Source: Ulota crispa (Eukaryota; Streptophyta; Bryopsida; Orthotrichales; Orthotrichaceae). From it: a stretch of 64,000 nucleotides of DNA. The translations under genes and the position numbers were made by a program. Positions within the stretch are counted from its first letter, which is position 1. Each line of letters begins with the position of its first letter. Shown in pieces: positions 1,003 through 59,945 of the stretch. The stretch covers positions 15,844,539 to 15,908,538 of the forward strand of contig OY987248.1 of NCBI GenBank assembly GCA_963920765.1, written 5' to 3'. A model generated the notes under the pieces. The model saw nothing but the letters and a program-made list of their open reading frames with translations. It was not told the origin of the DNA and searched no databases.

Positions 1003-2757
1003 AAGAAGGGTGGTTAGATAAAACTTTTAAGGATATTAGACATCAATCTTATGACTTTCTCTTGGAAAATGATTTTTTATGGAAGAAGCCAAAAGAAAAG
1101 ACATAGTACCATTAAATGTGGTTGATGATGTAGAAATTAAAAGTCAAATTCTTAAAGAGCTTCATAATGCTCTTTGGGTAAGGCATAGAGGAATTTGGGC
1201 AACTAAAATCAAAGAACGATATTGGTGAAAAAGCTTATATAAAGATGTGGAAAAATTTATAGGTTCTTGTGTTAATTGTCAACTACAATTCAAGATGCGG
1301 TATAAAGATGAACACCAGAAATATCCATTTTTCATACATTTTCAATGAGCCATTAACTTAGTAGCAATGTCATTGGAGTTGTGGGGCATGAAACTCATTG
1401 TTTTGGTTAGAGAAGAGCTTTCAAACTTTGTAGAAGGTAGAGCTTTAACCCCTCACCGGCCAAGGCCCAAATTGGGCCTCCTTGAATTTATTCAAAGTTG
1501 TGTGACCCTTTTTAAGGTTTTTTTCAGTGATTATTTTTATTTTGAATTCTTATTGAAGTCTAGTTTTAGCATTAGGAGTCTGATTTTGAAGATGAATTAA
1601 AGTGATTTGTCTATTCAATATTTTGTGCAAGGGTGTCCATTGTAAATCTTCACTTTCTAGTGTTGAAGGCTCTTGGAAATGAGCTTCAAGTGCACTAGAA
1701 CTTGAAGAAAAAATCGCATTAAAAATTCAACTTAGAAAATTGTAGATTTTGAGAAGCCGTAAATTGATTGGGGTTATGCATGTTATACTTTATATACTTA
1801 GATTCTTTTGGTACCCTCAATTTTAACTTTGAGATGCAAAAAGAGGATTGAAAGACTTCAAATCACTTTTGCATTTTTAACACCTTCATGATCAAACATT
1901 ATAATCTTTCAATCCACAAGTGATATTGTTGTGATTTATTTTCCTATGTGATCTCTAACATGTCTACTTTGAATGTGTACGGTTGCACTTTAGAGAAAAT
2001 TGATAAGATTGATCAGAATGCCAGCATTTTATTCACTTTTAAGCAAATACTGAGATACTCAAAAATACCATGGGGGTGAAGGGTTAAGGAGCAAATCTAT
2101 TGATGGAGTTTGCAAATTTATACTTGAAGACATTTTTAATAGATATGGCAATATTGAAAAAATGAAAACAGATCATAGTGAAATAATTGCAATAGAATCT
2201 AACACATTCAAAAAACATATATGGAGTGAAATTGAATCTTATCGTTGCTTATATTTTTGAAGCAAAAGGTAAAAGTGAGAGAGGGCATCTTCCTATCATT
2301 AATGCTTTAATTAAAACATGCCAAGAGAAGCCAAAACGATGATCTAAATCATTACCATTTGCATTTTGACCAAATGGAATTACCCATAAGTTAATATAAA
2401 TTCAAATTACATACCAATTGAACTTATGTTGGGGCAAATTCCAATTATGTCTATAAAAGATATAGTGCATATATGGGTGTTTTTGGATTGGATGGATGAT
2501 ATTCCAAGAGAAAGATCACTGAAGCATTAGACACAACAACTTGCAAGATTGCCTAAAGACCAAGAGGTGGCACAACTCTACTTGTTCAACTTTTTTCAAA
2601 ATCCATTGGACACTCTTAAATTATTTACTAACAACTGGAAGGTCCATTATATTCCAAGACAATAAGAATAATGCAAGAATACAACAATAGAATTTTAAAA
2701 AATGCATTGCTAACTTTAATTCAAGATAGTTTTCATAATATGTGAAGGAAGATTTCC
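1003..2757 (+). pseudogene. Ty3/gypsy retrotransposon pol relic (integrase region), interrupted by a TTAA MITE
   Basis: Decayed polyprotein of an LTR retrotransposon; the live family copies itself through RNA and inserts with its integrase. Reading across frameshifts and stops, about 1120-1290 encodes the zinc-binding HHCC part of integrase (HNALWVRHRG, then CVNC). About 1370-1445 encodes the start of the catalytic core (LVREELSNFVEGRAL, a typical gypsy core stretch). The core resumes at about 2088 with the TDHSE-like segment that normally holds the second catalytic Asp. About 2400-2650 resembles the integrase C-terminal region (ELMLGQ, WMDDIPRE, LARLPKDQEVA). Several stops and frameshifts make it dead. 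No LTRs, gag or reverse transcriptase were recognised here. The element at 1445-2087 splits the integrase core. Assignment to Ty3/gypsy is from motif style, not from a search. Confidence 0.7.
1445..2087. mobile_element. TTAA-flanked piggyBac-like non-autonomous element inside gypsy integrase
   Basis: A 643-bp insert bounded by TTAA on both sides. It begins TTAACCCCTCACCGG and ends GGGGTGAAGGGTTAA, an imperfect inverted repeat. No transposase is encoded. The flanking retrotransposon integrase reads in frame on each side of the insert and continues in the same frame when one TTAA and the insert are discounted. The boundaries are therefore exact and the target duplication is TTAA (or the central TA, which cannot be told apart here). 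A diverged relative lies at about 22860-23540 in the opposite orientation, sharing much of the internal sequence. Confidence 0.8.
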
Positions 2758-3137
2758 TAGTTTCTATTTTGGTCTTGGAACACAATTATGCCTTGTAATA
2801 TTGTGTTTGGATTATTATGCCTTACTCCACTACCATATTTCAAAAAAGCTATAATTTTCATGGAAATTTTGACAAAGACTTCAATTGATGAATGTTGAAT
2901 TTTGTCTAGAAAAGGCTCTATAGAAAACTCACCCAAAACCACATACTATAGGAAAGACAAGACTCATACATATTTACAAAATTGGTATCAATTTAAAAAC
3001 GTAATACAATATATAGAAAAGTTGTCAATATCTTGTGAGATTTGTTTATTCCATGGAGAAAACAATTCCAAGAACATTCTAATTTTTGGATTATTACTAT
3101 TTTTGCCAACTTTGTCCTCTAGGTATAAAAAAATAAA

Positions 3138-3507
3138 GGAAAATTTTATGGATACCCCTGAAGTTTGCTATATTTTCATAGATACCCCTTCTTTCAACCC
3201 TTGGACCAAAAATTTTAGGTGTTTGTTTTGTTGTGCACTCCACTTCCCTTTTCCCTTTATGCGCACGCATTACAAGAAAGAAGTAAACAAGAAATAAGTA
3301 ATGTGCCCACAAAGGGAGGAGGAAGTGACATGCACAACAAAACAAATGCCAATTTTTTTGGTCCGAAAATATTTGTGATATTTTTGAAAAAACAAGGATA
3401 TCTATGAAAATATTGCAAACCTCAGGGGTATCTGTGAAAATACTGCAAACCTCATGGGTATCTGTGAAAATACTGCAAACCTCAGGGGTATCCATGAAAT
3501 TTTCCCT
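3138..3507. mobile_element. Mutator-like foldback MITE with 30-bp repeat units, copy 1
   Basis: A 370-bp inverted-repeat element. The left end GGAAAATTTTATGGATACCC mirrors the right end, which finishes ATGAAATTTTCCCT. It is flanked by a perfect 10-bp duplication, aaaaaataaa, at 3128-3137 and 3508-3517; 9-10 bp duplications are typical of Mutator-like elements. Inside the ends lie copies of a 30-bp unit (about one and a half on the left, four on the right). The core inverted segment includes a TTGGACCAAAAATTTTAGG-like stretch. The 3097-3639 reading frames are artefacts of this repeat. The same family appears at 35643-36221. The target duplication is low-complexity, which lowers certainty slightly. 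Confidence 0.75.
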
Positions 3508-4015
3508 AAAAAATAAAACCATAATCATGTAGTTACCGAGTACATTTTGAAGTACAGAGATTGACCGACAGAATGGCGGGATACGAAATGTACCGAGGAT
3601 GTACATATGATAAATCAAGACAGGCTCAGTAAATGCCACGGTGAGTTGGTAGATGCAGGGACCTACAGGCTTTGACCTAAACTGAAATCAGTGACTCGAA
3701 TTCGTGTGAGGGCAGAACGTGAAGCTCTGGAGTTGCGAGGAGTGCAATCCGTGCGTAGAGTAGCTTGATCCGGTAGTATTTTGGCAGTGAGGATCGAAGA
3801 AATGGCTTAACTTATTTCAAGCTAGTATTGTGATGCTGTCTGTGTCGAAATGCCGAAGAGAACGAATATAAATTTGATAGATTGGTGGATTGGAAGGGAT
3901 TGATTTGATCGAACAAGTTTGATCGCATCGGGATTGGATTGCAGACGTGATGCTGCTGGCATTTTGAGAGCGCATTGAAGGACGAAGAAGACGCACTACT
4001 TACGGCGCTAAGAGG
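3508..4015 (+). promoter_or_regulatory. MON2 upstream region and probable 5' UTR
   Basis: From about 3540 the base composition shifts from AT-rich intergenic DNA to a mixed, more GC-rich sequence that continues into the first coding exon at 4016. No TATA box or start site can be placed with confidence. The region most likely holds the core promoter and 5' leader of MON2. Confidence 0.4.
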
Positions 4016-7000: not shown

Positions 7001-10000
7001 TTCTCACATATATGAGCCTGCAATCGACCCAATTTTAGTACCTTGAATTTTCAGATGTGTTTCTCAAACCCGGTCCCTTTTAATTCGCAGGCTTGTTGAA
7101 GATGTTATCGTTGACATTCAGCCACTTTTGGCAACAGAAAATATAACTTTATCTGAAGAAGGAAGGCTAGGTCTGCACCTTTTCGAGGATCTTACTGCGT
7201 TTGCAGGGGCTGGATCGGTAAGTGGGTCTTTCCTTTATTGAGAGAACAACATCACTACCAAGTTCTGTGTTTGGTGGAACCAACCTAATGGCTTCTGTGT
7301 TTGACGAATTTTTGCAGGCAACGTGGCTCCAAGTTCCTCAACTTCAAAGAAGTTTTGCACTAGATATGCTAGAGTGAGTGAATGGACATGTTCTTACACG
7401 TCCAACTTTTCTTTGGCGAGTCGTTCATCGTCCAATGACTAAATGCGAGAATATCTTAGTTTTCTTGAGCATGCCAAAACTTCCAACAGTTGGTGATATC
7501 ATTAAAGAATGTGCTTCAGCGGATCGTGTGCTGCCTCTTGTACTGGGTAATAGCTGACAAGTGTCCTGTGAATGTATTACAGGTATGTTTTGTCGCACTA
7601 CGCAGTTATTTTCAAGAGGCTGAGTCCTTTTGCGCAGGTATTTTATTCGTTGCATATAGGCGGATGGAGATTGTACTAGTTAGGCGATGCTTCGTGCAGC
7701 TTTGAATAAGGTTCATGTGTCGTCTGATTTTCATTTGCAAAACGGGTGAAGGTTTTGAAGCACCAAGTTTGCTCGCTGCTTATGACATCTCTCCGCACTT
7801 CAAATGAGGTATTATTGGTTTTTTTACTCTATTTTATTTGACTTTCAACATAGTTGTTTCAATCTCTTCTTCTTTGTGGACTCAATATTTTAATCCTCAA
7901 TCTTTTCCTTCTTCTCCTCCCTATACACCTCAAATACAAACTGCAGATGACTTACAACATCCATGCATATGAGGATGTCGATTGGTCTGATTCAAGCTAT
8001 ACACTTCATACGTATTGGGCAGAAATCCAAGTGATTTTACAGTAAATTTTCTTTATTTATGTGGGACTATGAACTGGATTTATGTTATTAAAGGTTATCG
8101 TGGTCCTGCTCTTTCTGATATATATGGACTGTCGAGTATGTTGCTACATGAGTCACCTACTTGCTTGCCGAGCTGTACATAATGTAATGTTTGTGGAGAA
8201 TTCAGCAGCCTTATTTATTTATTTATTTATATAATGTGACATTTGCTTTTTGTGTGTAATATGTTATTACAGATCGATTCTTTAGCTGGTGAACCAGCTT
8301 TTAGGCGCTTGCTCCTACGAACCGTAGCAAGTGTAACCCGACTATACAATTCTATGCTGACCACAGAGTGTGAGGTGAGAGTATTCAATTGTCATGCCAA
8401 AAATGATATAACTTCGAAGCTTTGATTTTGCAAATACATTTTATTATCTAATATATGTAGAATTTGCTATAGGGCGTATCTTAAAAGGTGCCGAAGATTT
8501 GGAGGGGTTGTGCTAATTATATCAGATTTTTATGATCATCTTGTTGATAAGGAGTGATGCAGGCTTATCGGCACTGTACCTGTTTTGGTCGGTGGAAATT
8601 TTGTTAGATTCCTCGTCTTCATTCCTTTGTTACAGAAAGCTAAAAGGAAACCACAAATCGTTGTCGTGATTTGATCGACAAGTGCCAGTGGTATAAGACG
8701 TGACAAACGCCATCAGGAAATGTGATATACTTACCTGCAAGTCTTATGGCAGGTGTTTATGAGCATGCTCATCAAAAGCATAGATTTAGATTTACCACCT
8801 TGGCACCATATCATGGTGCTTGAGACATTGCGGGTAAGAGCATCCTCTTTAGTCTTCTGATTTAACTGAAATATAGCTTTGTTAAGCGCTCCTTTTAAGC
8901 TTCTTGTACTTTCCAGAGAATCTGCATGCATGAGGTGACAGCTTTGATCCCAAATCTAAAATGTTTTCAGGGACTATGCGTAGAGCCAAGAATGTTGTGC
9001 CTTCTATTCAAAACTTTTGACTTGTAAGTGTGACTGCGGGACTTTTATCAATATTATTCGTTTCTAGACTGTTCTCTCAGTGTGTATTAGATCATTCTGT
9101 GCCTCTATGATTGTTGCTGCTATATTGATAATATTTTAGAGAATTTTCCAGCTAGGCCCTGCTAGTTTGATTGCATGAGTACTTCGTTCAAATAGTGGCG
9201 TGTATCCGTGGGTGGGCATTGAGGTTGTCTGCGTATGGGAGGTGCACTGATTCTAGCTTTCTTGATTATAAGATGACTGGCAAAATATCTGGACTGAATA
9301 CCATTACGCATTCAGGAACCTCAATAATACAGACATGGTGGCGAACATAGTTCATACTCTGGCTAGAGTCGTGACAAGGATTGAGGTTACAAACTGCTTC
9401 TCTTACTTCGTTTTGCATTATTTTACTTACATACGTGGAAGCTGCATTTTGCAGATAGGGTTTTTTCCCCTTTTAGTTGCTTCATGTCACTTTTGGTAAT
9501 TAGGAGTTCGTTTCTGTTACATGTTCATTTTCTTAGGGCTGAAGTAATATTTCGTTTAGTTGTCTTGCGGGTGTCAGTTGTAATAGTGAGATTATTGGCT
9601 TTGTGCTCATGAACTGTAAATTTGCAGCTGCTTGATGGCAGTGAGGAGACATTGATAGCTGTTGCGGGCATGTTCCATTGCAAGTCTAAAGGTTAGACAG
9701 CTTCACTCTAGGCATGGCATCGACCATTAGACCTTGGGAGTACACATATGCACCTGGAAACTGATTATCACACTATCATATATAACTCGGGAATGCATCT
9801 CTAGGTCAAATGTCTTGAGGATTTTTGCAGGAGTGTGGGCGTTCTATACAGGATCACAATTATTATTTATTCCTTCCATCTGTACAAATGTTAGGTATAG
9901 AGTGGACACCAGAGGGAGATCCAAGCGGAATGGGAGCATTGATCGCAAGTGAGGCGCAGGCTGTTACATTAGCTGCAGAGGGTTTGCTGGGAGTCATTTT

Positions 10001-22317: not shown

Positions 22318-22856
22318 TTAACCCGTAAAGGATGAGGCAGTCCTTTGCGACCGGTAGAATACGGGGTATTTTTCTTGTATTTGAAGTGCATTCACACCTT
22401 CATTACATTTGAGGTCAACAAAGAAGTTACAATATAGATTAATGTTGTTCTAGTGAGGTAGTCAAGATCCCAAATTAAAACTTTTTGTTGGTAGCAAATG
22501 CTAGTGTACATAGTATGTATTATAGTAGCCTTGTCCCTTAAGGATTAAAGGCCAAGCAGTTTTTTATTTGATTTTTTAGAAGTGATCATAAACACACGGT
22601 CCATCATAGAATGCAAAAAACTACCTCATTATTTGAACTAGTAGTTTTAGGTAACCCAAATTGTGAGAAATTTTAGAGTCACAATGTTAGGTCCCAAGCT
22701 GCCTTTACTATAAATTTCATGAGGGCACCATGCACTATTGACCTTTGCAACTTTTGAAAATAATATTTTAATGTGTGGGCACCACCATAGATATTAGTGT
22801 TCACCCTAAACATTGTACATGGGTAGGCACAAAGAGCACCCCATGTCTAAGGGTTA
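22318..22856. mobile_element. TTAA-flanked piggyBac-like MITE
   Basis: About 539 bp bounded by TTAACCCGTAAAGGATG on the left and GTCTAAGGGTTAA on the right. Only the outer 8-9 bases of the ends mirror each other clearly, so the copy is diverged. No coding capacity was seen. Pairing of these two ends is inferred from the shared family signature. Confidence 0.5.
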
Positions 22857-22859
22857 AAG

Positions 22860-30682: not shown

Positions 30683-31620
30683 TTAACCCCTAAAGGCCCA
30701 GCTGTCCCCCTAGGGACGATTGAGATTTTGGACATGTACCTATAGCTAATCTAGTTTTTGTGATTTTTTAAAACTTTTATTGAAGGTGGGGAATTCTAAG
30801 ACCTACCCGGGAATCTAATTTTTTTGTCATTCTAACATTTGACAAAGAAGTTATGCAAGAATTTCTGCTGCTCGATGGAGGGAGGGCAATCCAGGCAGCC
30901 CAAAAACTTCTTAAAAATTTGTATTTTCTAAAAATAGAAATCTGAAATTGATTCTCTAGATTTTTTATATGTGGGAAGCTTTGAATCATTCAACTTCAAT
31001 TAATGAGATGAAAGTTACGAGATGTTTTAGTTTGTGGGCAGTTATGGATTCTCTACTCTAAAATAAACTTTGAAGTCCTTCATTTTCCACAATTTTCAAT
31101 ATTTTGGAAAAAAAACTAAACCTAAGGAAGTAAATTATTTATCACCACATTATAACCTTTGGGATTTTCATTTTTTCATTTTAATGACTAAATTCTTAAC
31201 AATTTAGTGATTTGACTCATTCTCTACTTCTTTTTACTTATTATTTTTCCCCATGTGTTGTATAGTTCCAATTGACTTGAAAATTCTCCCACACATACTT
31301 AACTTGGTCTGCTACATGGAAAAATCAACCTCAACTTTGTGTAGAGTAATTTTTTTCATGTAAGTGTGGACAAAGGCTTCTAAATTTTTTTGGACGACAC
31401 AAAAAGAAACCATTTTTTCACTTTAGATGTAAATATCTCCCTCCTCTCCATCTAGAATGATCTGATTTTTTCTCACAAGTACCTCTACTAATCTAAGACA
31501 TTATCCTACGATTAGATTTGCAAAACAAACTTTATTTCCTACTTTTCTACTCATTCTCCCCAAAGTGACAGTTAACAGTGACTTTCATTGGAGAAAATTG
31601 CTTGGGCCTTTAGGGGTTAA
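30683..31620. mobile_element. TTAA-flanked piggyBac-like element, 938 bp
   Basis: Perfect 18-bp terminal inverted repeats: TTAACCCCTAAAGGCCCA at 30683-30700 and its complement at 31603-31620. Next to the left end is a small palindrome, GTCCCCCTAGGGAC. No transposase frame is present. A second copy at 57137-58515 matches along almost the whole length, which defines both ends independently. The layout CCC...GGG inside TTAA is the piggyBac signature. Confidence 0.8.
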
Positions 31621-39661: not shown

Positions 39662-42289
39662 CTAAGAATGTGGATAACCAGGCTTTGTAGCTGGAGGGTA
39701 ACCTGCTGGAGGGTATCCTGCAGGAGGAGGTTGATAGGACTCCGCAGCTGGTGGATAACCAGGTCGGTCGGTTGTTGATGCAGAAGGGTACGCTGCATGT
39801 GACGGCGCAGATGCAGGTCCATACGGAGCTGCTCCACCTGGCATGGAGCCACCAGAGAGATTACCCTGACTTTGTGCCAACCGAACAGCCTCCTGCATGT
39901 TCTTTATTCCCTTGTCATAGTTTACGAACCCCATGTACCAGAACTCATGTCCATCTTTGGTCACCACCTGGATGTACTTGTCTGTCGGCTTCTTCTGATT
40001 TGCAATAGGCACAACTTCCCTCACCATGTCCAAGGGAAGGATGACCTGAACTCACAATCATGCCCACATGAAGAATATTTAGCTTCTTCATCGTAAAACC
40101 TGAAGAACTCAGAAACAGAAACAGAAGAGTAGCAAAGCCTGAACTCAATCCCTTAAGTGCCCAAATGGCCGAAATTGGTAGCTAGGGGAGTTGAGATATA
40201 CTCCCTCTGCCTCTCTAAAAAGCTCCAAATCATACACATTTCTTGTATCACTGCAAAGCTCCCTATTGCTGATTTCAAAAGATGAGAAAGCGTTTGCCAT
40301 GTTGAATGATTTCATGGAGCAAGTTAAGCGATTAGAGAGCATTCCTCTCCTAGCAAGCTTGGCCTTGCCCATATGAGGTACCATTTTTGTTATTAATCTC
40401 TAAATCATCAATAATGAGGAGCTGGTAGCATGCACAAATATGGTACTCTTTGCATGGAATTTGGGTGCCCAAAAGGCAACATCAAAACTAGAGATTTTGC
40501 ATACATTTGGTAAATGGTATATTGATTCTAGAACGCATGTGTCACTAGCACAAAGACTAAAAACACAGTTAATCATTTGCAAGGAATCTTTTTGGACGTT
40601 TTTAGAGGGACAGAGGGAGTATCATTTAGGTAGCTTCAACAGAAGTAACAAGGTGTACTAAAAAAGAGGAAGAAATTTCACCCTAAAATTTTGAATGATT
40701 ATAACAAGTTTTGAGAGTTGTTATGTTTCGCTATTAGTTTCCAGAGTGCAGTCTCTAGTTTTAGTTTGAGCACTTAAGAGTTGAAGTGCTAAAAAGTAAG
40801 CACACGTCTCGAACAATGACAGGAGCCATTTTGAATTCCTCAAGACTAAAATTGTAAATCCAAGGTGCATGGAACTAGAACAATACTACACGTACCTTGT
40901 AATAGCTGCTTTGTTGCTGCCCAGGAGTAGGGTGGTAAGTCAGCTCCCGGTCACTGCAGAAAGCGAACTTCAAATTCGTAATGTACAGTGTGCCACTGAC
41001 TGCGCCATTTGAAGTAGAAAGATGGCATGCATATGTTTTCTTCAAATTCTCATTCGGTTGAAATGGCCCAAACGTTTGCTTATACACGCCCTCAAAGCCT
41101 CCCTCCCTTAACAATCTCGTTCCATGAGTAATCCTTCCAATAGCAGCATCTGGAAGAGAGTTGCTTGTTTTCACTGCCAAAAAAGAAGTTCCAACACAAT
41201 AAATACCATGCTCAAGTAGAAGCATTCATGGCACATAAGGCAAAACCAAACTCCTATGTCGTAATAAAATACAGCATTCAAACAAAAACGCCATTTTGAA
41301 CTTACTATGGCCCCAGAAGCTCCCCGCCACACTCTCAGCCTGCTTTCCGAGCTTGTTCAAATAATCCATAGCACCTCCTGGTACTCCCACCAAGACTAGT
41401 TAGACACATCCTCCACTTGAAAAGAGACAAAAATCAACTATAAGAACTTATTTCTCTAATCCATTAACAAAACCAGTCCTAGGACAAGAATACTCCATTT
41501 TACAACCAATTAACTTTACTCTTCCGAAGCAACATCAAGTAATCCAAACATACACGTTTCTAACGCACAACCACATAAACTAGATGTAAGAAAAGAAAAA
41601 CTCCAGTAAGGTAGCAACACCCATAACCATCACTGTACCCATAACCATCACCTCTAAAATCTTGGAAAATTTGTGGAAGTGAATAGATGTAATTACAAGG
41701 ATGTACAACATGTGAATATGAAACCTTAGTGTTGGTATTAGGTGCAATTGCAATCGGCTCTTTAAAATTCACAATTTATTCTCACAGTATCCAAATAATA
41801 CATTCGAAAGTGCAAAATCATCATTTTTCTCTTCCTAATAGGATCCTATAATTTGCTACATGTTTATCAATAATCATCATGTTCAAAACCCTTAATTTGA
41901 CGGTTATGGGTGCTGCTACCTTAACAATAAGTATATTCAAGCATCCGAAACAGCCATATCTCTTCCAGCTCCCTCAAACAATACTTATACAAATTTCTTT
42001 TAAAAGAAGAATCTTAAACCAAGAAAGCTCAATTCACAACCGATAACAAGTTACAATCTACAAGCTCCAAATATTAAAGCAAACACTCCAAACACAACAA
42101 TCAGCTAACCTAGAAACAGAAAACAAGGAGCACTGTAAAATCCATGCACGGCCGTGTACCTCTTCCAGCTCCAGTGGTAGGAGTAGTAGTCGGCCTGCCA
42201 GAATCGGGATACGCCGACGTGCCAGCCGCACCGGCCACACCGCCGGGCACTCCTTGATTGTCATAGTGCGCATACGGATTTGCACTCAT
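39662..42289 (-). CDS. GEM-like GRAM-domain protein
   Basis: Relative of Arabidopsis GLABRA2 EXPRESSION MODULATOR and the ABA-responsive GRAM proteins, which are thought to bind membrane lipids or chromatin-associated partners. Four exons: 42289-42160, 41377-41306, 41173-40896, 40045-39662, giving 287 aa with consistent phases. The N-terminus is short and disordered (MSANPYAHYDN, Pro/Thr-rich). A family block follows (MDYLNKLGKQAESVAGSFWGH), then the GRAM domain (about residues 70-190), including GFEGVYKQTFGPFQPNE, KTYACHLSTSNGAVSGTLY and KDGHEFWYMGFVNYDKG. The tail is Pro/Tyr-rich with two GYPPA repeats ending PGYPHS; this tail is longer than in typical GEM proteins. Intron 3 carries a Stowaway MITE. 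The 5' leader appears to contain another intron with tandem repeats. Confidence 0.93.
40201..40619. mobile_element. Stowaway MITE in intron 3 of the GEM-like gene
   Basis: 419 bp with ends CTCCCTCTGCCTCTCTAAAAA and, from the right, CTCCCTCTGTCCCTCTAAAAA. TA flanks at 40199-40200 and 40620-40621. The body matches the element at 28297-29345 in reverse orientation. No coding sequence. Confidence 0.85.
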
Positions 42290-42700: not shown

Positions 42701-42732
42701 ATGAACAGGAACAAACGTAGAGTACGAACCTG

Positions 42733-43100
42733 GTGGTGATTTTGTGAGCTGAGGTGGACGAGAGGTTTGTGTATTGGAGTAATGAGAGAGATTGCGAGAG
42801 AGGAGCGGAGAAGGAAGGATTGTTACGGAGAAATACCGGAGTAGGGTTTCCGCGTGGAGGGCCTCGAAGAGGAAGAGAGGAAGAGGAAGAGGGGGAATAA
42901 AGTGGTCGGTCGGTCTGGCACTCTGTCTGGCATCGACCGGCGCCACCAAGTGATGCTGCCGACATGGCGCCGTCGTGGAACTGCGGCTGCGGCAGCGGCT
43001 ATTCGCGTTACGAAACGTTCTGTACTTGACATCGATGATTCCCAAGATGTCCACGTGGACTTGCGCTTTATTGGTTCTGGAACACGTCGGAGGAGCAGTC
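42733..43100 (-). promoter_or_regulatory. Probable first non-coding exon and promoter of the GEM-like gene
   Basis: GC-rich, CT-rich (on the - strand) sequence upstream of the leader intron, typical of a plant 5' UTR. The promoter would lie between it and the transposon beginning at 43137. The overlapping reading frames have no family features. Confidence 0.4.
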
Positions 43101-43136
43101 AGCAGGTTTTATTTTCTTGGGAAAATTTGATACATA

Positions 43137-44723
43137 CAGCGACTTCAAAAAATGAGTCTATGTGGGTTATTTGGGTCAGAAAAGTGACATTGTAAAGAGT
43201 ATGAAAAATCAAACCAAAAAAATTTAAATACAAAAGTTTGAGAGCATGAGGTAACACATCATTTCAAATAAAATTGAAAAAAATGCTACTAAATTTAAAA
43301 AATATATAATGCTAAAGTTGACTATGTACATAAATTCATTTTTTGAGGCTGGTATTCTTACAACTTCAAATGGGTGTAGAATTTAGAGAATTTGTGTTTT
43401 TTGGTGAATTTTTTATGGTTTCTCTTCTTGTCTCTTTGTAGAATATATTGTATTGTGTAGAAAGTGAAATTAGCATGATGAAGCCAATTTCAAGATAGAA
43501 AACAAGAGGTATTGATGTTCTTTTGATGAAAGATAAGAGTATAAGAGAGATTGCAAAATTTCTTGGTTTCACACAAAGTACTTTGAATAGAATGGGGAGG
43601 AAAATTTGTAGTAGCTTAGAATTGCCAAAACAAGATGCTCCAAAGATTTTTATTGCTTCATAAAGACGGCATGTAGTATGTTTGGTCATGGTTGGAGGGC
43701 TAGAAATGACATCACAAGTAGTAGAAGTATTGAAAGAGGGTAGAGAGGTAGGGTTTTGTGACAACACATTGTAGTAGGTTTTGAGAGATGCCAAATTGAG
43801 TGCTTGTGAGAAGGTGTCAAAGTCTTATTTGTCACGGAAACATGCACTCGCTTTGCAACAATTCACAAAAATTAAACAATAGAGGATTGGAAGAGATTTT
43901 TTTTCAATAATGAGAGGAAAATAATTTTTTTAATGCAAATGGGACTATGGGAGGGCCTACTGTTGGGTCAATGACAATGAAAGTTTGCTTGATTGAGGAG
44001 TGAAGCATGCAAAGAAGCACGGTAGAGGGTCTTTGATGCTATAGAGTTGCATGACATCAAGAGGTCTGGGTGATTTATAGAATGTGGATGGTTGTTTAAA
44101 TGCATAAGACTATATTTCAATCTTACATGAAGATTTGTACTTGGGTTTGGAAAGATTAAGATTTTTCAACATTGATGGAGTTATTTTTGAGCATGAGGAT
44201 GCTCCTATTTATAAAGCAAAGATTGTTCAAAAATGATTATAAGAGCATTATTTTACTATTTTAGAGTGACTAACTCAATCTTTGGACCCAAATCCTATGG
44301 ATCATGATTGGGAAATTTTCAAACGTTGTTTGAATTCCTACCCAACTCTTCAAGCGGATCTTTTACAATTATGGGAATATGTGCAAGACACTTTTAGAGC
44401 CATTACTACAAAACAATATGAGAGATTATATACTAGCATGCCAAGTCAAATTTTAGTTGTTTTGGTTGCTTATGACAAGTAGATAAAATTTTGATCACTT
44501 TGTATATACCACCTCAAAAAATGAGTCTATGTACATAGTCAACTTTAGCATTATGTATTTTTTAAATTTAGTAGCAATTTTTTTTCAATTTTTTTTGAGA
44601 TGATGTGTTACTTCATGCTCTCAAACTTTTGTGTTTAAATTTTTTTGGTTTGATTTTTCATACTCTCTACAATGTCACTTTTCTGACCCAAATACCCACA
44701 TAGACTCATTTTTGAAGTCACTG
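43137..44723 (+). mobile_element. Tc1/mariner element with long terminal inverted repeats
   Basis: 1587 bp. Ends CAGCGACTTCAAAAAATGAG and, from the right, CAGTGACTTCAAAAATGAG, part of inverted repeats of roughly 220 bp that stay alignable through TATGCTAAAG-type words. TA flanks at 43135-43136 and 44724-44725. The centre holds a dead transposase gene. CAGT ends, a TA target and the protein all agree on Tc1/mariner. Confidence 0.88.
43475..44482 (+). pseudogene. Tc1-like transposase, decayed
   Basis: With several stops and frameshifts the protein can be followed: a helix-turn-helix start (MKDKSIREIAKFLGFTQSTL), a catalytic-core stretch DWKRFFFNNERK, then FEHEDAPIYKAK, then SLDPNPMDHDWEIFKRCL and the C-terminal MPSQILVVL. 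Compared with the family, the first catalytic Asp reads Asn, the second reads Glu, and the final Glu reads Asp; the spacing of 34 residues between the last two is kept. Three in-frame stops lie between the last two catalytic positions. Non-functional. Confidence 0.8.
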
Positions 44724-44725
44724 TA

Positions 44726-45718
44726 ATTTACCCCCTGAAATTTGCGATACGGCAGACAGACCCAACTTTTAAGGTAGCACCATCCATAAGCATTGCATCC
44801 CCATGCCCGTCACCTGACAGTGGCAAGGATAATCAATAAAAAAACAAATGGTTGTGGGTGACTAAGTGATGGTTATGGGTGATGAAGTGATGGTTGTGGG
44901 TGACTAGCATGAGGTTTTGAGTACCCATCTCACTATTTAAGAATCAACAAGCCTTATGGTTAGCATCTCTTACACATGGTTCCTACAATTTCAATGATTT
45001 TGGACTTTGAAAAATCTTTGTGGACAAATGCTTGCAGTTGGAACCTTGAAATTGAAGCCCATATTTTTGGTTTCCATTTCCTAACATACAGTATTTTTTT
45101 CAAAGTTAGTCAATTGTTTTACCTATTCCAAAACCCCTATTTCCACGCTTATGGGTGCGCCTACCTTAAATATTGTTTTTTCGATGGTTGCGTGACGGTA
45201 ACCAACAATCAAAAATGCATGTAAGGAAAAATTGGACAAAAATGGATAGAATCAAGCACGATTGTGTTTTCATCCAAATCTACTAATACTTATACATTTC
45301 ATCCAAATTCAGACAAACTTGTTATGTGCTTGGGAAGGAACCTGGCAAATTCATTTGAATTTCATTTTGGCATAACATGTTTTGGGGGCTCCAAAAAAAC
45401 AACAAATTCCATACTCATCCATGTTCAATCACAAATATCTTAACATCCACATTGTTTTTTTAGATTTTTTTGGTGCCACCATCTAAAAGCCTTGAAGTTC
45501 AAGATCCTACAATGATAGTTTTGTTTCAATGTTTAGTAATGATTCTACAACAACAATTTCAAAACTTCAAATTGCCTTCTAAAAATAAGAAAAGTATTCT
45601 TGGGCATATAGGGGTTAAGGTGAAATGCGAGAATACCAAAATTTGGTGTTTGTTATAATCTTCTCTTGAGTTCCACTAGCTTAGGATCATACATACCAAA
45701 GTAGAGCTTTCCATTCAT
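44726..45718. other. AT-rich intergenic DNA with a short tandem repeat
   Basis: A 21-bp unit (ATGGTTGTGGGTGACTAAGTG) occurs three times at 44848-44910. Nothing else recognisable. Confidence 0.5.
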
Positions 45719-45811
45719 TAACCCTTAAACACCGAAGGGGACGATTTTTGTCCCTGCAAATACACGGGGCCCCATGTATCCACGGTGACCCCTCGGGCGC
45801 GGAAGGGTTAA
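45719..45811. mobile_element. Miniature TTAA palindrome, 93 bp
   Basis: Begins TTAACCCTTAAACACCGAAG and ends GCGGAAGGGTTAA. GC-rich palindromic interior (GGGGACGATTTTTGTCCC, CGGGGCCCC). Same terminal signature as the longer TTAA elements, so probably an extreme deletion derivative. Confidence 0.65.
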
Positions 45812-45961
45812 GACAAGATATAGGACTATAATTATTTTGAGCTTCAATTCTAACTGCAATAGCAAAGATTATCAGGACAAGCAGTCCCTCATACCAGCAT
45901 GTTGAACACATAAAGAAGAATAGTAACATTTGAAAAACAAAGGAACAATCTAAAGCAACCT

Positions 45962-46040
45962 TTAACCCCTAAATGCGTGAGGCACCAATTTCTAGTGTAA
46001 AGTCCACTAGAATTTGGTGCCGCAAGCATTTAGGGGTTAA
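45962..46040. mobile_element. Miniature TTAA palindrome, 79 bp
   Basis: Perfect 15-bp ends TTAACCCCTAAATGC / GCATTTAGGGGTTAA, with a further internal pairing GGCACCAATT...AATTTGGTGCC. It could fold into one long hairpin. No coding capacity. Confidence 0.75.
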
Positions 46041-46343
46041 ATGGTGAATATAATGTTTCACAAAAGTAATTCTACTGCTTTGGCCAAACAGATCTACACA
46101 GCAAATGCTATGATGGCTATGCCTTTTCATATACACAAATAAAAAGCATCCCTACTCTTCATTAGCTTGGTATGCATATTACTTCAATCTTTCCTGTTGT
46201 CAATAAGATCCACTTATAACACAAGCAGGCTTCCTCAAATCACAACCCACTCTTCAGATAACAAACTCTCTCTACACCACAAATTTGGCTGAGTTCAAGA
46301 AAACATTAACCATAAAACACATATATTTACAAAGAGATGTGTA
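46041..46343. other. Intergenic DNA
   Basis: Mixed-composition sequence between the small TTAA palindrome and the Tc1 element. Nothing recognisable. Confidence 0.5.
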
Positions 46344-47682
46344 CAGTGGCCTCAAATAAACTTTGTCGCTTTTTACTCTCGATATGGCCAGACGTGAAAC
46401 CCTTGACCTCCTTCTCTCCGCTCCCATTTTCTGCCTGCGTTGCTATGGATCCTCAAGTTTCGTCTAGGATTTGGTTGAGTGTTGAACAAAAGGCTTGTAT
46501 CATTGGAATGAAGATTGCAGGTACAAGAATGCCTAAGATTGCTTCTCTACTGAAGGTGTCAAAGCGACAAATCCAAAGGATTATGAAGCATGATCGAGAA
46601 GGAGGCTCGTTGCAGCCAAAGAAGAGTCTAGGTAGACCTACAAAACTCAAGGAGAGGCATGTTAGGACCTTAGTTCGCAAGATTAGAAGTGACACACGTG
46701 CTACCTTGGCTGAAATTACGAGCATTTTGCCAAAGAAGGTACATCCTGACACTGTAAGAAAGGCTCTTCATTCTACTAGACTATTTGCTCGAGTTGAATC
46801 CAAAAAACATTTTCTTAGCATTGTACACAAGGCAAAGAGGATAGAATTTGCCTTGCAACACAAGAATTGGACTGTGGAGAAGTGGAATAGAGTCATTTGG
46901 ATTGATGAGTCCACTTTTGAGATTGGGAAGAATATTTGCCAAGTGTTGGTATGGAGAAGGGCCTATGAATAGTACAACATGAACTATCTTACACCAACTT
47001 TTAAGTTTGGGTGCTCTTTAGTGATGATTTGGGGAGCATTTGCATGCAACAAGAAGAGCAGACTTGTTTGTATGGCCAAAGGACGTAGCACTGCTGTTGA
47101 TTTTGTGGAACAGGTGTACGATGGCAAGTTAATTCACTTTTTACCAACCATCAACCACCCCATCTTGATGGAAGATGGTGCCCCTGTCCATCGATTGAAG
47201 GCGCCAAAGGTATGGAGGGATTTGTGTTTGCTTAAAAAGCTTGAATGGCCAGCAAACACTCTAGATTTGAACCCTATTGAGAACGTTTGGGCCAAGATGA
47301 AAGGAGAGTTACAAAATGGCCTAAAGTTCAAAATGACAACAAGATGTGGGCACAGCTGCAAGATTTATGGGAAGGGCTTCTTCCAAAGTGGTTGCAAAGC
47401 TTAGTAGGCATGATTCTTGAACAAATCCAAGCTGTGATTGCTGCAAAAGGAGGGTCAACTCATTGGTAGCATACATTTAGCTTGTTTTCTTGATACATGT
47501 AGTATTGTACTTCTAAAGCGTTGAGATTTAGAGCAAAGCATCTCAATGTGCTTAAGAAGCTGTGTACCAATTTTCAGAGCAATCAAGTTTGAATTGGATG
47601 CATACTAGCTTCTTTTCTAACCGGAAATGGCCTCTCAAACAACGTAGGAAAAGAAACCGACATACTTTATTCAAAGGTACTG
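46344..47682 (+). mobile_element. Tc1-family (DD34E) transposon with nearly complete transposase
   Basis: 1339 bp. The left end CAGTGGCCTCAAATAAACTT and, from the right, CAGTACCTTTGAATAAAGTA are imperfect inverted repeats, with TA at 46342-46343 and 47683-47684. It carries a transposase pseudogene with only one stop and one frameshift, so it is younger than the element at 43137-44723. Confidence 0.85.
46445..47469 (+). pseudogene. Tc1-type DD34E transposase, one stop and one frameshift
   Basis: Starts MDPQVSSRIWLSVEQKACII. The N-terminal paired-like DNA-binding part has two helix-turn-helix segments (TRMPKIASLLKVSKRQIQRI; TLAEITSILPKKVHPDTVRK) with the GRP linker (LGRPTKL). Catalytic triad: Asp in WIDESTFE, Asp in MEDGAPVH, and Glu in LNPIENVW, with exactly 34 residues between the last two (DD34E). 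There is an in-frame TAG at 46969-46971 inside VWRRAYE*YN. A frameshift between about 47300 and 47320 moves the C-terminus (KWPKVQNDNKMWAQLQDLWE ... AKGG) into another frame. All catalytic residues survive. Confidence 0.88.
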
Positions 47683-47684
47683 TA

Positions 47685-53482: not shown

Positions 53483-53716
53483 CAGTAGAACTCCTCTAAA
53501 CTGATATGGTTGGGACCCAAGAACTAGATTAGTTTACATAGGTTATTAGCTAGGTATCTTGAGGTCAGTGCCAGGATAACATCAAGGAGTATTACTACTA
53601 TTGAATTAATTGTTTTGGTTTATGACTGACATATGATTTGACATTGAGATTTGTGTTGTATATTATATTATAGAGGATATTAGTTTTGAGGATATTAGTT
53701 TAGAGGAGTTCTACTT
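53483..53716. mobile_element. TA-flanked MITE (CNGTAGAACTC family), second copy
   Basis: 234 bp with ends CAGTAGAACTCCTCTAAACT and AGTTTAGAGGAGTTCTACTT, with TA at 53481-53482 and 53717-53718. It shares ends with the smaller copy at 33985-34115. Confidence 0.8.
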
Positions 53717-53718
53717 TA

Positions 53719-54217
53719 GTGCATTGAGCTTGCCCCCACTAATTTCTTGATATTTTACAGTATGTAAATACTTGTTGGTTCTATAGTATTTTGTATACTT
53801 TAATCATAGTTATTGTATTTAATAAATTTTTAAAGGGCATGACAACAATAACAAAGCTGTTGGAAAACAAATTAGCAATGTTAAGGTCGTAAATTATGTG
53901 AAATCTTGGTATTTAGTGAGTTGCATGAGCCTTCAACTCTTGAAGCAATCAAGCAATAAATCATGAGGCAACTTTTTAGGGAAAGACAACCTAATCATTA
54001 GAGCAACCTAAAATGCATTTTTTAGCGTATTAGAGCAAATGTTCCATTTTTTATTTTTCTTTGTCCACTCTTCCCTTTCAGTTTCTTTACTTCATTTGCT
54101 TCTCCCTTTATTTTCCTTTTTTTCATCCACTTAGCCTCCCTTTCTTTTTCTTTTATTTATCATACTTTCCCTTTCTTCTTTCTTTTACTTGGCTTAACTT
54201 CCATAATTATGAGTATA
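53719..54217. other. AT-rich intergenic DNA
   Basis: No gene recognised. The T/C-rich run at 54050-54190 gives a false open frame. Confidence 0.5.
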
Positions 54218-54544
54218 CTAGTATATTACCCGTTGTACCAACAAGATTATGCCCCCCATCCCTTATCCCCGTGCCCCCTATCCCTGTGCCCCCTATCCCC
54301 GTGCCCCCTATCCTTGTGCTCCCCTATCTCTATGCCCTCTTTTGGCCAAGAGAAAGTTGTGGTGCAACTACCAGTGACAGTGCAATTGCCAATGACTTGT
54401 TGTTAATGTCTAGTGAAGCCATAGGTGATTTTACTTTATTCCATTTATAACTTTCCAATCCCAGTCATGCCCAACCTTCCCCTAGTCATGCTCAACCCTA
54501 ACTAACTGAGAACTGATTGAACGGTATTCTTTTATTAATATAGA
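54218..54544 (-). mobile_element. Helitron-like element, second copy
   Basis: On the - strand it starts near TCTATATTAATAAAAG and ends GGGTAATATACTAG followed by T, the same 3' CTAG end as at 27734. It contains four or five 15-bp CCCCCTATCCCYGTG units (about 54255-54330). The outer 5' boundary is accurate only to a few bases. Confidence 0.5.
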
Positions 54545-57136
54545 TGTAGTCCTAGATAAGTACAACTATAAGCTTTATTAAATGGTCATCCAATAAAAGT
54601 GAAATTTACCCTTACTCTCTTTATGAAACTCCTAAACGCAGTGCAATGTGGTGAATTTAGCAATTCCCATTTCTTTTAATGCAAGACAATTTCATGTCAA
54701 AAATTTTGATGTTTATATTTTGAAGGCCCATTTCCCCTAACACATTAGACATGTATTGGTGACAAGTGTTTTTATTTCTTTCTTGACGCCGGTTCACACT
54801 CATAGTTTTAAGTTGCATTTCCAAATATGTAGGGAATGCATTAGAAAATCATGTTCTTTGAAATGACACATTCTCCCATTTCAAGCAACCAATGGGATGA
54901 TTTCACATGACCTCAAAAGATGGGAAACAATCATGTGGGTCTTTTTAGGTGATTGGGTTTTGAAACTTTGTAGTGATTTTAATTAATATTTATGAATTTT
55001 TAGTCACATTCATTCCTTTGCTACTCCTTACTAATGAGAATGAAATTTTTGATGACGCATTTGGAACTATGTTCATGACCAACTGAAAGTTGGAGAATTT
55101 TCTAGTGAAAATGGGGCATGAATTTAGAAGGTGAAATGGAATCAATTGTTTGCTACCTCTTGTACAAACTATTGTAACAATTTCAAACAATTACAAGAAC
55201 AAAAGGGAAGTTCTATGTTGTTTTAGAATCATAAAAACCAAGTATGACTAACAAGTTTTCAATGTAAAATTATTTGTTGTAAAATTTTCAATTGTGGACT
55301 GAAACGAAAGTTTGCTCCAAGTGTAAGAAATTACATGTGTTGTTATATGATTTTATGTTTTTGTCATATGATATACACTTTGTTGTAATACTCGATGATC
55401 TATTGCATTTACTGGATCTAGATGGTAAGGGAGGCGGCTTTGCATGTAGGGAAGTCACAATGAGGAAGTTTAAATACGTATTTTGAGTATTTTCCTTGAA
55501 AAAAGAAGCTAGTGCTATAAAGACAAAACTTCTCAACTGCTTCACTTTGTACATTCAGAAAATTGACACCAGAGGATTTCAAAATCTTATCAAAAACATA
55601 AATTTCTTGAGACGTTTCAGCATGAAAAACCATAGTTTCTCTCATGCAAAATATTATTTTTTAAAAAGAAAACCAAAAGGTTTTCTACTTAGCAAGGTGC
55701 AAGAAATTGCAAGTACAAGTTTTCTTGCTTGAAAGTACAAGGAAAACAACAAGAAACCATATTTGAAACCAGTGCACAAAATTGAGATTACTCTCTAGCA
55801 AAAATATCAGAGAGAAATACAAATCTACCAAAGAAACACGGTGAGCTTTGAAACCCCCTATCAAAAATTTATCATAATGGATTGTAATAATTGTGATGGT
55901 GGAATGATCAAGTGAGTTGCCGTATAAATGTAATACCAAATTTTTGATATTTATGGAGTTTATTTATATTGCTTAAAACGTATTTAGCTCTCAATACTTC
56001 AAAAAATCCAAAATAGTATCTAAGCATGCTTCTTAATATGAAGTTATCTTCTGTAATTGAAAGGATACTCTAAAAAAATTAGCATGCAGCTTTTGAACAC
56101 AATGTGAATGAACTATGAATTTGTTAAATGATCATTATAAATGTAGTTCAAAATCATTTCTGGGTTTTGGTGTTGAAAAGGTTTATGCACAAAAAAGGAT
56201 ATTTTGTCATAGAACACTTGAAGGTACTACTTTGATTCTTACAAAAATATATGTATTCTACAAAATTTGGGCACATCACAAGTCACATTGAAAAAAAATT
56301 AGATATTTTTTTTGTTACTTAAGGGGGTAATTTTTAGCACAAAAGATGTGCATATGGATGTTTTCCACATACCTATGCAATCAAATCTCAAAAATTCATC
56401 ACTAATGTTTTTCAATCAATTTTCTTGTAAATTCATGAATTTAGAATAAAATAACTCACCAAAAATGGAGTTTTGTTTTTTAGGAATCCAAATTTGGTAT
56501 GCTTCATTGGGATTGCATAAGAATCAAGTTTCTATGATTCAAATCAACAATATGTTGTTTAGGTTCCGTAATATGCAAAGTTCTTTTATCTCAAGAACAA
56601 GGTGACAAAAACTTATGAGAGAGCACTGTACAATACATCAAAGTTGTAGGTCTCCCAAAACCTTGATTTTGGTGAAAATGGGCTGGGCGCTCAGGGTTAA
56701 TCAATATATTAATAGCTTTTAGCAAATTTTATCCACAATTGGGAGGACTGCTCCTCATCAGTCATCAGTGTAACAAAATCCAGGATCTAATATAGGACGT
56801 TCGTGAATCTTCTAAAGGGGAGCTTGAAAACTGGAATCCAACATATGCTATTAGTGGGAAAGATATAATTAGTTCTTGTCCTTATCTACCGACTAAGGAT
56901 CATAGGTTAATATTTTTGTTATTTTAATAAATTTTCCCTAAAACCCTGGCACCTTCAGCCGTGAATATATTTGTTTGATAATATATAAGAATATATCCGC
57001 ATTATGATTGGTTGAGGGAGTATTGTGGTGCATTTGATAGTGACCTATTGTTAACGTCCGCTGAAGCAAGTCAATCTAATTGGTTGAGAGAGAGAGTGTT
57101 GTGGTGTAACTTCCATTGATCCATCATACTTCATTG
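54545..57136. other. AT-rich intergenic DNA, 2.6 kb
   Basis: No gene, RNA or complete element recognised. A lone end GCTCAGGGTTAA at 56687-56698 looks like one terminus of a TTAA element whose partner was not found. 57010-57136 shares words (TTGTGGTGC, TTGTTAACGTC) with the interior of the Helitron-like elements. Confidence 0.45.
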
Positions 57137-58515
57137 TTAACCCCTAAAGGTCCAGTTGTCCCCTTGGGGACAAATGGATTTTGGGCATGTACCTATAGCT
57201 AATATACTTTTTGTGATTTTTTAAAACTTTTATTAAAGGTGGGGAATTCAAGACCTACCCGAGCATCTAACTTTTTTGTCATTCTAACATTTGACGAAGA
57301 AATTATGCAAGAATTTTCACTGCCCAAGGGAGGGAGGGCAATCCGGGCAGCCCAAAACTTCTTTAAAAATTGTATTTTCTAAAAATAGAAATGTAAAATT
57401 GGTTCTTTAGATTTTTTCATATGTGGGAAGCTTTCAATCATTTAACTTCAATTGATGAGATGAAAGTTATGAGATGTTTTAGTTTGTGGGCAGTTATGGA
57501 TTCTCTACTCTAAAATAAACTTTGAAGTCCTTTATTTTCCACAATTTTCAATATTTTGGAAAAAAAACTAAACATAAGGAAGTAGATTGTTTATTACAAC
57601 ATTATAGCTGTTGAAATTTGCACTTTTCATTTTAATAATTAATTTCTTAACAATTTAGTGATTTGACTCATTCTCTACTTCTTTTTACTTACTATTTTTC
57701 CCCATGTGTTGTATAGTTCCAATTGATTTGAAAATTCTCCCACACATACCTAACTTGGTTTGCTACATGGAAAAAATAAACCCCAACATTGTGTAGAGTA
57801 ATTTTTTGGGGAAATTACAAATAGGGGCATGAAAATGAAAAATATTTCAGATAGGGGTACAATTTCAAATTTATTACAAATAAGGGCGCAATTTCAAAAT
57901 AATTTGTAAACTTTTGTAAATTTTTTTGCTTTGGACATTGGTTGATTCAGACATGTCACATGAAATGTTAGCTAACTTCCAAAAAACTTAAAGGCCTCTC
58001 CAAATCAAGCCTAAATAAAGAAATTTTAGTAAAGGGGATGACAATTTTTGGAAAGGCCTTTAAGTTTTTGGAAGTTGACTAACATTTCATGTGATATATC
58101 TAAATTAACCAATGTCCAAAGCAAAAAAAATTACAAAAATTTACAAATTATTTTGAAATTGCACCTGTATTTGTAATAAATTTGAAATTGTACCCCTATT
58201 TGAAATATTTTTCATATTCTTACCCCTATTTGTTATTTTCCCTAATTTTTTCATGTATGAGTGGTCAAAGGCTTCTGAAATTTACTAGCGGTAAGGAAAA
58301 AATCCTTTTCCCTTCACCTCAGATGTAAATATCTCCCTCCTCTCTATCTAGAATGACCTAATTTTTCCCACAAGTACCTCTTCTAGTCTAAGGCAAGATC
58401 CTATGGTTGGATTTGCAAAACAAACTTTATTTTCTATTTTTCTACTCATTCCCCCCAAAGTGGTAGTTAACAATGACTTTTATTGAAAAAAAGGGCTTGG
58501 GTCTTTAGGGGTTAA
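57137..58515. mobile_element. TTAA-flanked piggyBac-like element carrying a nested Mutator-like MITE
   Basis: Ends TTAACCCCTAAAGGTCCAG and GGGTCTTTAGGGGTTAA. Full-length relative of the element at 30683-31620, interrupted at 57808-58242. Without the nested insert and its duplicated 9 bp it would be about 935 bp, matching the 938-bp sister copy. No transposase. Confidence 0.85.
57808..58242. mobile_element. Mutator-like foldback MITE nested in the TTAA element
   Basis: 435 bp with inverted ends GGGGAAATTACAAATAGGGG and, from the right, GGGAAAATAACAAATAGGGG. The arms pair over most of their length (AACATTTCATGTGA, AAGGCCTTTAAGTTTTTGGA). It has a 9-bp duplication TAATTTTTT at 57799-57807 and 58243-58251. 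The sister copy at 30683-31620 shows the single unoccupied site near 31346. Confidence 0.85.
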
Positions 58516-58532
58516 CCACCACATGAGAGAGG

Positions 58533-58700
58533 GATACATGCGTAAAGTGGTTACATTGAGTCCTTTTAGAAAAAGATTGGTAGAGAAGAGAAAGATACAT
58601 GTGTAAAGTGGTTTATATTAAGTCCTTCTAACAGAGGACCAATAAGAGAGAGAAGAATACATGCGTAAAATGATTTACACTGAAACTTTACTTTGAAACA
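58533..58700. repeat. Three-unit tandem repeat of about 61 bp
   Basis: Units begin GATACATGCGTAAAGTGG near 58533, GATACATGTGTAAAGTGG near 58594 and GAATACATGCGTAAAATG near 58655. All are followed by a TTAAGTCCTT-like stretch and an AGAGAGA run. Confidence 0.7.
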
Positions 58701-58828
58701 AGTTGTTACATCCATTAATACAACGGGTACTTAAACTTGTTTTCAATATCAAGTTTCCTTTTATATTTATTTACTTTGACTGTGGTTTGATGATTGATTT
58801 CGTATGTGTTTGTAATTATATTTATTTC

Positions 58829-58958
58829 ATGGCTAAAAGGCAATACAAAGTCTTTATAAGAGAATATTTGCAGAAGATTCGGGAAGAGGTTCCCCACTTC
58901 AGAAAGGCCGAAATTGCTGAAATGCTCCATCAAGTAGGGATAAATGGGAAAACGGTAA
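58829..58958 (+). pseudogene. Possible exon fragment with HMG/YABBY-like helix, uncertain
   Basis: An ATG at 58829 opens a short frame, MAKRQYKVFIREYLQKIREE, continuing VPHFRKAEIAEMLHQVG. The pattern Y-x-x-F-I-(R/K)-E-x-(L/I)-Q-(K/R)-I-(R/K)...P resembles the start of the YABBY (HMG-like) domain. A potential donor (CAA/GTAGGG) lies near 58935. No neighbouring exon, zinc finger or remainder of the domain was found. It may be a transposon-captured gene fragment or chance. Confidence 0.2.
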
Positions 58959-59696
58959 TCACTGTAATTATCTTTGCAAGAATTTGGTTTAGATGGCCAA
59001 GTCTCGGGGCCAAGTATTGGATGCTTAACCAAAATGTAAACAAAAATATTTAATTGGCAACCATCATATTACATCAAAAAAATTAACTAAAAGAATCATT
59101 TGTAACTTGATCCAATGGAAAGTTGCAATGGGTTGAACATTGACTTTGTTTGTGTCGATCATTCTTGTTGTGAATATGTTGGTACTTTGATGCATTTAGC
59201 ATCTTTGGTGCATTGTTGCAAAATGCAATAAGTTGAAAACAACATTAAAAATCAACCAAATTGGTTACAAAGGGTTGGATTTTTGGTTTGTTTTAACTAA
59301 AATGAAGAAGAAATTTGGCAAGTTATTTGTAGAGAAAAGAGAAGTTCTTGGATAGTCAAAATTTGAGATAGCAAGTTTCATCCGGCCAAATTTGAGTCAT
59401 ATTTGATTGAAGGTTCATGAAGGGAGGGATAAAGAAATGGTTGAATGCAAAGATTCTCTTTAGAACTTGAAATGCTTTTGCATTGCTACGTTTTGAATGA
59501 TCATATATGTGAATGAAAAACATTGTTTTGTCTACGTTTTACATGTTTCATCCAAATTATTGGATGTGAATAGTTTTGTCTATTTATTGAAAATCCCAAT
59601 TTATGCCACCTTTGGAAAAACATTTAACAAAAACCTACTTTATATTTTAGGTGCCCAGGTGCCCCTATAATTAATTCTCTACTCATACCAAACTCA
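58959..59696. other. AT-rich intergenic DNA
   Basis: No gene recognised. Confidence 0.5.
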
Positions 59697-59945
59697 TTAA
59701 CCCTTGAGCGTCACAACTGTTGTTTTTCAAATCAAGATTCCAAGAATAGTCGAGTAGTCAAACCTTATAATCTTTGCATTTGTATGGTGGATTTTCACAA
59801 AAATTACAAATTCGCACTTGTCAGGTAGTAGCCAACAAATTTCTATGGTGAATTTTTCAATTATGGCTTATACTCCAAGTTATTTTCAGAACGCTCTCCC
59901 AAAATTTTCTGGACCCCTATTTTGTTTGTGACGCTCAAGGGTTAA
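59697..59945. mobile_element. TTAA-flanked piggyBac-like MITE, 249 bp
   Basis: Perfect 20-bp ends TTAACCCTTGAGCGTCACAA and TTGTGACGCTCAAGGGTTAA. Non-coding interior. One of the best-preserved ends of the family in this window. Confidence 0.85.

Follow-up and report, generated by a model that had tools for sequence, protein, structure and literature searches.

The window analysed here, a 64,000-nucleotide stretch of contig OY987248.1 taken at its full length, carries a set of small elements that begin with TTAACCC and end with GGGTTAA. A first-pass annotation, made from the letters alone, had read them as seven piggyBac-like elements in a plant genome; several are listed below as miniature inverted-repeat transposable elements (MITEs). 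We checked the sequence and recovered the starting and ending motifs at all seven places, with two boundaries displaced by one base (45718 instead of 45719, and 22857 instead of 22856). One pairing, that of 22318 with 22856, was wrong: its relatives at other loci of the genome (L005, L026, L032 and L006) begin at 22318, and the one in L005 stops at about 22549. The sequence that follows, at 22560-22772, resembles L014 and L028.

Four elements had been credited with perfect inverted ends of 15-20 bp, and three reach that length, namely the two marked in the table and the element at 45962 (15 nt). The other perfect inverted ends, TTAA included throughout, measure 13 nt at 57137, 9 nt at 45718, and 7 nt at both 1445 and 22318; some copies in the window are decayed to inverted ends of 7-9 nt. 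The TTAACCC/GGGTTAA motif occurs 19 times in the window, compared to a mean of 8.63 and a maximum of 18 across 100 dinucleotide shuffles.

Table. Positions of the transposon features in the window
Feature	Position	Strand	Length	Ends and remarks
piggyBac-type non-autonomous element	1445..2087	.	643 bp	TTAACCCCTCACCGG / TTAACCCTTCACCCC
piggyBac-type non-autonomous element	22318..22548	.	about 231 bp	right TTAA 22545-22548 beside degraded end
Right terminus of separate neighbouring element	22851..22857	.		GGGTTAA; left end not placed
piggyBac-type MITE	30683..31620	.	938 bp	18-nt perfect inverted ends
piggyBac-type MITE	45718..45811	.	94 bp	3 further places
piggyBac-type MITE	45962..46040	.	79 bp	almost entirely palindromic
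Tc1-like transposon	46342-47684	+		CAGTGGCC and CAGTACC, beside TA at 46342-46343 and 47683-47684
Second copy of the 30683 family (MITE)	57137..58515	.	1379 bp	length due to nested insert at ~57808-58242
piggyBac-type MITE	59697..59945	.	249 bp	20-nt perfect inverted ends

Copies in the genome and the TTAA target

A genome search, which the first-pass annotation had recommended, returned the window elements elsewhere with matching ends and boundaries. The main family is that of the MITE at 30683, which gave 45 match rows; 40 places were scored out of 8489 first-look candidates, itself included, and the 39 others are 89-91% identical and mostly full length. Thirty copies of this family diverge from their majority sequence by a mean of 4.9% per site. 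The window's second copy, at 57137, matches the first over two segments (90.5% over 686 bp and 82.7% over 272 bp). Its nested insert is near-palindromic, about 435 bp long, and flanked by TAATTTTTT (57799-57807 and 58243-58251), which is single in the 30683 copy; we take this apparent 9-bp duplication to be Mutator-like. The search with the 59697 element scored 40 places, itself included, out of 146 candidates; 18 are full length, again counting itself, and the others are 77-86% identical. The element at 1445 has a full-length copy with the same ends at L001:854-1507 (83.8%). For the 79-bp element at 45962, 36 places were found besides itself, with ends mostly exact or near-exact, and for the element at 45718 the 3 given in the table (40 scored of 310 candidates). 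The near-perfect 79-bp palindrome acts as a complete element, present dozens of times, and is very small for cut-and-paste transposition.

Exact ends of the form TTAACCCCTAAA numbered 30,972 in the genome (15,477 + 15,495), compared to 77 for the reversed pattern. We infer a total of the order of ten thousand elements or more; TTAACCCCTAAA may count the ends of several families. A TTAACCC is followed by another TTAACCC within 0-10 bases at 701 + 645 places, where the reversed pattern gives 195 + 190; these abutting ends perhaps reflect insertion into the terminal TTAA of another element.

The first-pass annotation had argued for a TTAA target rather than TA, and had held that copies lacking a consistent TTAA would speak against a piggyBac origin. 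The 16-base end motif CCCCTAAAGGCCCAAG occurs 1727 times genome-wide (885 + 842; the reversed-pattern control gave 0), and TTAA directly precedes it in 1448 cases (739 + 709), or 83.8%, whereas TTAA starts at 0.57% of window positions. At the 4.9% per-site divergence given above, decay from a universal TTAA predicts 0.951^4 = 82%, near the observed value. TTAA stands on both sides of 24 of the 30 best-scoring copies, the window's own included; the six that depart from this are L011, L022, L026, L027, L034 and L036. The outer T and A are thus retained together with the central TA, unlike the TA target with free outer bases of Tc1/mariner elements (Stowaway), and a 4-bp TTAA on both sides is not the 3-bp TWA duplication of PIF/Harbinger elements (Tourist). 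The short terminal inverted repeats start with CC, as in piggyBac elements.

Empty sites were sought among 48 TTAA-bounded pairs in 354 kb of sequence; 47 of them, joined at a single TTAA, were searched against the same 354 kb. Paralogous matches spanning the junction were obtained for four insertions, and three of these (L010, L020 and L033) show an empty site with one TTAA. The L010 insertion has one such site with TTAA kept, L020 has four with TTAA intact in two, and L033 has eleven targets in a repeat-rich context, four of them shown and one with an intact TTAA. Together with the 1448 preceded end motifs, these three of four cases bore out the TTAA target.

Transposase genes and the elements that carry them

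A DDE_Tnp_1_7 partner (PF13843), which the first-pass annotation had proposed to look for, was found: a search at E <= 0.01 gave 120 matches genome-wide on contigs C1-C11, the best at 254.5 bits and every listed row above the curated cut-off (116 scored of 528 first-look candidates). The same profile gave 0 matches in 14 control genomes, a result that says little about eukaryotes. Two transposase frames, from loci L070 and L069, were compared with Pfam by hmmscan and matched PF13843 alone. Their only relatives in the PDB at E <= 0.1 were 6x67, which we take to be the Trichoplusia ni piggyBac (E 9.8e-18 for L070 and 2e-13 for L069), and piggyBat 9c0f (E 1.1e-13 and 1.7e-10, respectively).

We aligned the transposases of 31 loci, the 30 best and L070, using the residue numbering of 6x67. 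D268, D346 and D447, presumably the catalytic residues, are kept in 28, 23 and 26 loci, respectively, and all three in 20 of the 31. Substitution of D by N accounts for 13 of the 16 departures from the triad, and 655 of the 1375 changes in MITE copies are C>T or G>A; both would be as expected of methylated, decaying DNA. The 31 copies form nine groups at 50% identity, with a median pairwise identity of 35%, and are 21-28% identical to the T. ni transposase in the aligned domain. Judged by these identities, the transposases are old and diverse rather than one recent arrival. Collections of viral and genome contigs, which hold no eukaryote genomes and say little on origin, were scanned with three aligned moss transposases, and no relative was confirmed (33 and 47 pattern stretches, none of which passed).

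Two copies of a single 5-kb element have a transposase gene between TTAA-bounded ends. The one on C3, element A, runs from TTAACCCCTCATCGCC to TTAACCCTTCATTGCC, measures 5027 bp and has the transposase inside. Its copy on C10 (the A/B pair) is 90.5% identical over 5029 bp, and the homology stops at the same ends in both, with TTCA in place of the first TTAA in the C10 copy. The window element at 1445 matches this 5-kb element at 18 of the first 21 bases, a weak link since the pair is outside the 24 best of the shuffle test. For L069, L055, L044 and perhaps L060, the 3' end only was placed. The 1500-bp flanks on both sides of 30 transposase domains contain no TTAACCC/GGGTTAA motif other than four GGGTTAA, all downstream, at L039, L044, L048 and L060. 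The interval L070:729-7335 was considered as one element and dropped, as 729-1637 also resembles a MITE.

The loci L069, L055 and L068 belong to one lineage with a common 3' region, L055 being an independent locus in the group of L069 (L041 in the 31-locus set). The 3' regions of L055 and L069 are 61% identical over 643 bp (E 7e-33), and both stop at the terminal TTAA, exactly at GGGGTTAA; L068 aligns to the L069 3' region over 333 bp, short of any end. We rejected L069:1417-7437 as one element because 1417-2342 is an independent MITE family (1770 candidates, of which 40 were scored, its own place among them); the 3' end at 7437 survives. Between the transposase and this end lies a long CATA tetranucleotide expansion (L069:5866-6480).

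The same 3' region connects the transposases to the window. Positions 466-938 of the 30683 MITE align with L069:6955-7437 over 500 bp at 60% identity (E 1.9e-20, for a search confined to these two sequences). Most relatives of the L069 3' part (40 scored of 3057 candidates) cover its final 590-650 bp and terminate at, or a few bases from, the same position. With this 3' region in common, the main window MITE family looks like a set of internal-deletion derivatives of the L069/L055 lineage.

The window also encodes a GRAM-domain protein, GEM-like in appearance and presumably of plant type. A LEAFY DNA-binding exon on C4, a contig that also bears several of the transposases, matches PDB entry 4bhk, which we take to be LEAFY of Physcomitrium patens, at 100 of 102 residues (235.8 bits). 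The four other LFY chains score 166 and below; we assume 2vy1 to be the Arabidopsis protein. By this match the host is a moss, which narrows the plant genome of the first-pass annotation, and type II LFY genes, the type of the class Bryopsida, are described in a LEAFY survey as mainly a moss feature (PMC6588583). Five further SAM_LFY matches, weak but over the cut-off, are on C1, C3, C10, C5 and C2.

Weighing the piggyBac reading and its alternatives

Our preferred reading, with a probability of about 0.93, is that the window elements are non-autonomous members of the piggyBac superfamily, resident in the nuclear genome of a moss, and that their transposase is encoded in larger elements elsewhere in it. 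The evidence that carries it comprises the TTAA flanking either side, the single TTAA of empty sites, triad-bearing transposases inside or beside such ends, and common 3' sequence. The first-pass annotation had named a partner with a different, well-known plant transposase as the outcome that would count against piggyBac; where ends were resolved, the transposase found within TTAACCC-type ends is of the PF13843 family, in support of the original proposal. A DDD transposase of the piggyBac superfamily, supplied by larger TTAA-bounded elements, would bind the CCC-starting ends (TTAACCCC), excise the elements at TTAA and insert them into a new TTAA, so that either side reads TTAA. We further infer that the transposase moved the MITEs in trans, that its excision would be seamless and that some copy may still work.

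Several observations weigh against this reading. In a control confined to the window, inverted 16-mers with 13 or more matches, adjacent to a given 4-mer, gave 5 pairs beside TTAA and 0 to 8 beside 13 other 4-mers (TGCA 8 pairs, AATT 7 pairs). The 5 TTAA pairs are three of the noted elements and two within one long inverted repeat at 43-45 kb. Judged by inverted ends in the window alone, TTAA therefore does not stand out, and the case rests on the genome. Among the empty sites, two of the four for L020 are decayed or misaligned, three of the four shown for L033 are not intact, and the one for L015 does not keep TTAA in an uncertain alignment. No end motif was found within 1500 bp downstream in 26 of the 30 transposase loci, whose ends are further out or decayed. 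The match of 60% between the 30683 MITE and L069 is old and partial, the 5' end of the L069/L055 lineage was not found, and the only element with both ends established (A/B) is in a different group from the relative of the main window family. A Cys/His-rich tail in the L069 frame was seen by eye only, with no Pfam profile match. No movement was observed, and the sampled transposases are almost without exception defective: of the 31 aligned domains, 30 are faulty, with an in-frame stop in 29 and a triad aspartate absent in L070 (N at 447).

The one aligned domain with a full triad and no stop is that of L049, and some further PF13843 places in the genome list, beyond the 31-locus sample, lack stops. 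With a few uninterrupted frames in that list, some lineages may be mobile. A broader account, in which native, long-resident moss piggyBac lineages diversified within land plants and seeded the huge TTAA MITE population, with some perhaps still mobile, is tentative, and we put it at a little under even odds.

The alternative that survives best is that the small elements are mobilised by another TTAA-using superfamily or by a relative of PIF/Harbinger, the piggyBac transposases being bystanders. Kolobok and Sola3 have TTAA targets and their transposases were not searched for, and the link between MITEs and transposases rests on 3' sequence. Against this, the elements that carry transposases have ends of the MITE type, about 470 bp of 3' sequence is common to the main MITE family and a transposase lineage, and a TTA/TAA duplication would not leave TTAA on both sides. 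We give this alternative a slim chance.

The elements might also be of Tc1/mariner type, with a TA target and inverted ends that by chance read (T)TA-ACCC. The TA is central in TTAA, and a Tc1-like transposase lies in the window about 300 bp from two of the elements, its domains HTH_Tnp_Tc3_2 and DDE_3 falling in the frames 46316-46969 and 46973-47401. We rejected this gene as the partner of the TTAA elements because it has ends of its own at TA (see table). The outer T and A, moreover, are conserved at the frequency reported above against the window background, and one TTAA remains at the empty sites in three of four cases, so that a Tc1/mariner origin is very improbable. Two other inverted repeats were noted in the window: ATACTCCCTCTG...CAGAGGGAGTAT at 40198-40622, presumably resembling Stowaway ends, and a repeat of about 220 bp, 94% identical and 1.15 kb apart, at 43135-43355 and 44506-44725.

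Hardly credible is the view that TTAA is part of the inverted repeat, with the true target duplication outside it or absent. TTAA is palindromic and filled sites alone cannot tell the two apart, but of 30 copies 21 have no direct repeat beyond TTAA, repeats of 1, 2 and 3 bp (the maximum) occur in 6, 2 and 1 copies, respectively, and the empty sites of L010, L020 and L033 keep one TTAA. The idea that animal or protist DNA contaminated the assembly, which the rarity or lack of reports of piggyBac in plants might suggest, deserves next to no weight: the transposases are spread across C1-C11, C4 carries several of them together with the moss LEAFY gene, and the window that holds these elements also encodes the GEM-like protein.

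Comparison with known systems

Under the piggyBac reading the type of element is a familiar one, found here in a group of hosts for which the literature searched offers only labels. A C-Fern assembly was reported with 1230 PiggyBac copies totalling 122,417 bp (PMC6890710), PiggyBac was listed among seven angiosperm MITE superfamilies (PMC10004981), and an animal survey states that piggyBac has been isolated from insects, fungi and plants (PMC10813416). In the accessible parts of these plant surveys, the reports are labels that come without a transposase, target site or element structure. The available text of a 2022 land-plant review lists six superfamilies of terminal inverted repeat (TIR) transposons with 0 occurrences of piggyBac (PMC9033089), and that of a 2008 survey describes only five superfamilies in plants (PMC2528002). 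Our literature search gave no title or abstract opening on a bryophyte-native piggyBac; a prior report may exist elsewhere. As far as these papers show, a land-plant piggyBac population with nine transposase groups among 31 copies and 30,972 TTAACCCCTAAA ends is new.

A transposase-backed moss piggyBac population adds a superfamily to the TIR transposons of land plants and raises the question of inheritance from an early green ancestor versus one or several horizontal transfers. piggyBac is used as a genetic tool that can leave without trace, and a native moss piggyBac would be a natural candidate for bryophyte tagging. The 79-bp family asks what the minimum size of a still-mobile piggyBac element is.

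The closest known system is piggyBac (IFP2) of T. ni, whose transposase (6x67) has the PF13843 family and the D268/D346/D447 triad in common with the moss proteins. Like the moss elements, IFP2 has a TTAA target and CCC-starting ends; its length is about 2.5 kb. The moss system differs in its host, in the low domain identity given above and in that its only fully bounded element is about 5 kb long. piggyBat of Myotis lucifugus (9c0f), the second solved relative, differs in its mammal host and low similarity. Papers on coral and ciliate MITEs, in the portions available, name piggyBac along with MITEs or TTAA (PMC2872659, PMC9942856); unlike those TTAA MITEs, the elements described here have a moss host, and the smallest of them is a near-palindrome of 79 bp present dozens of times.

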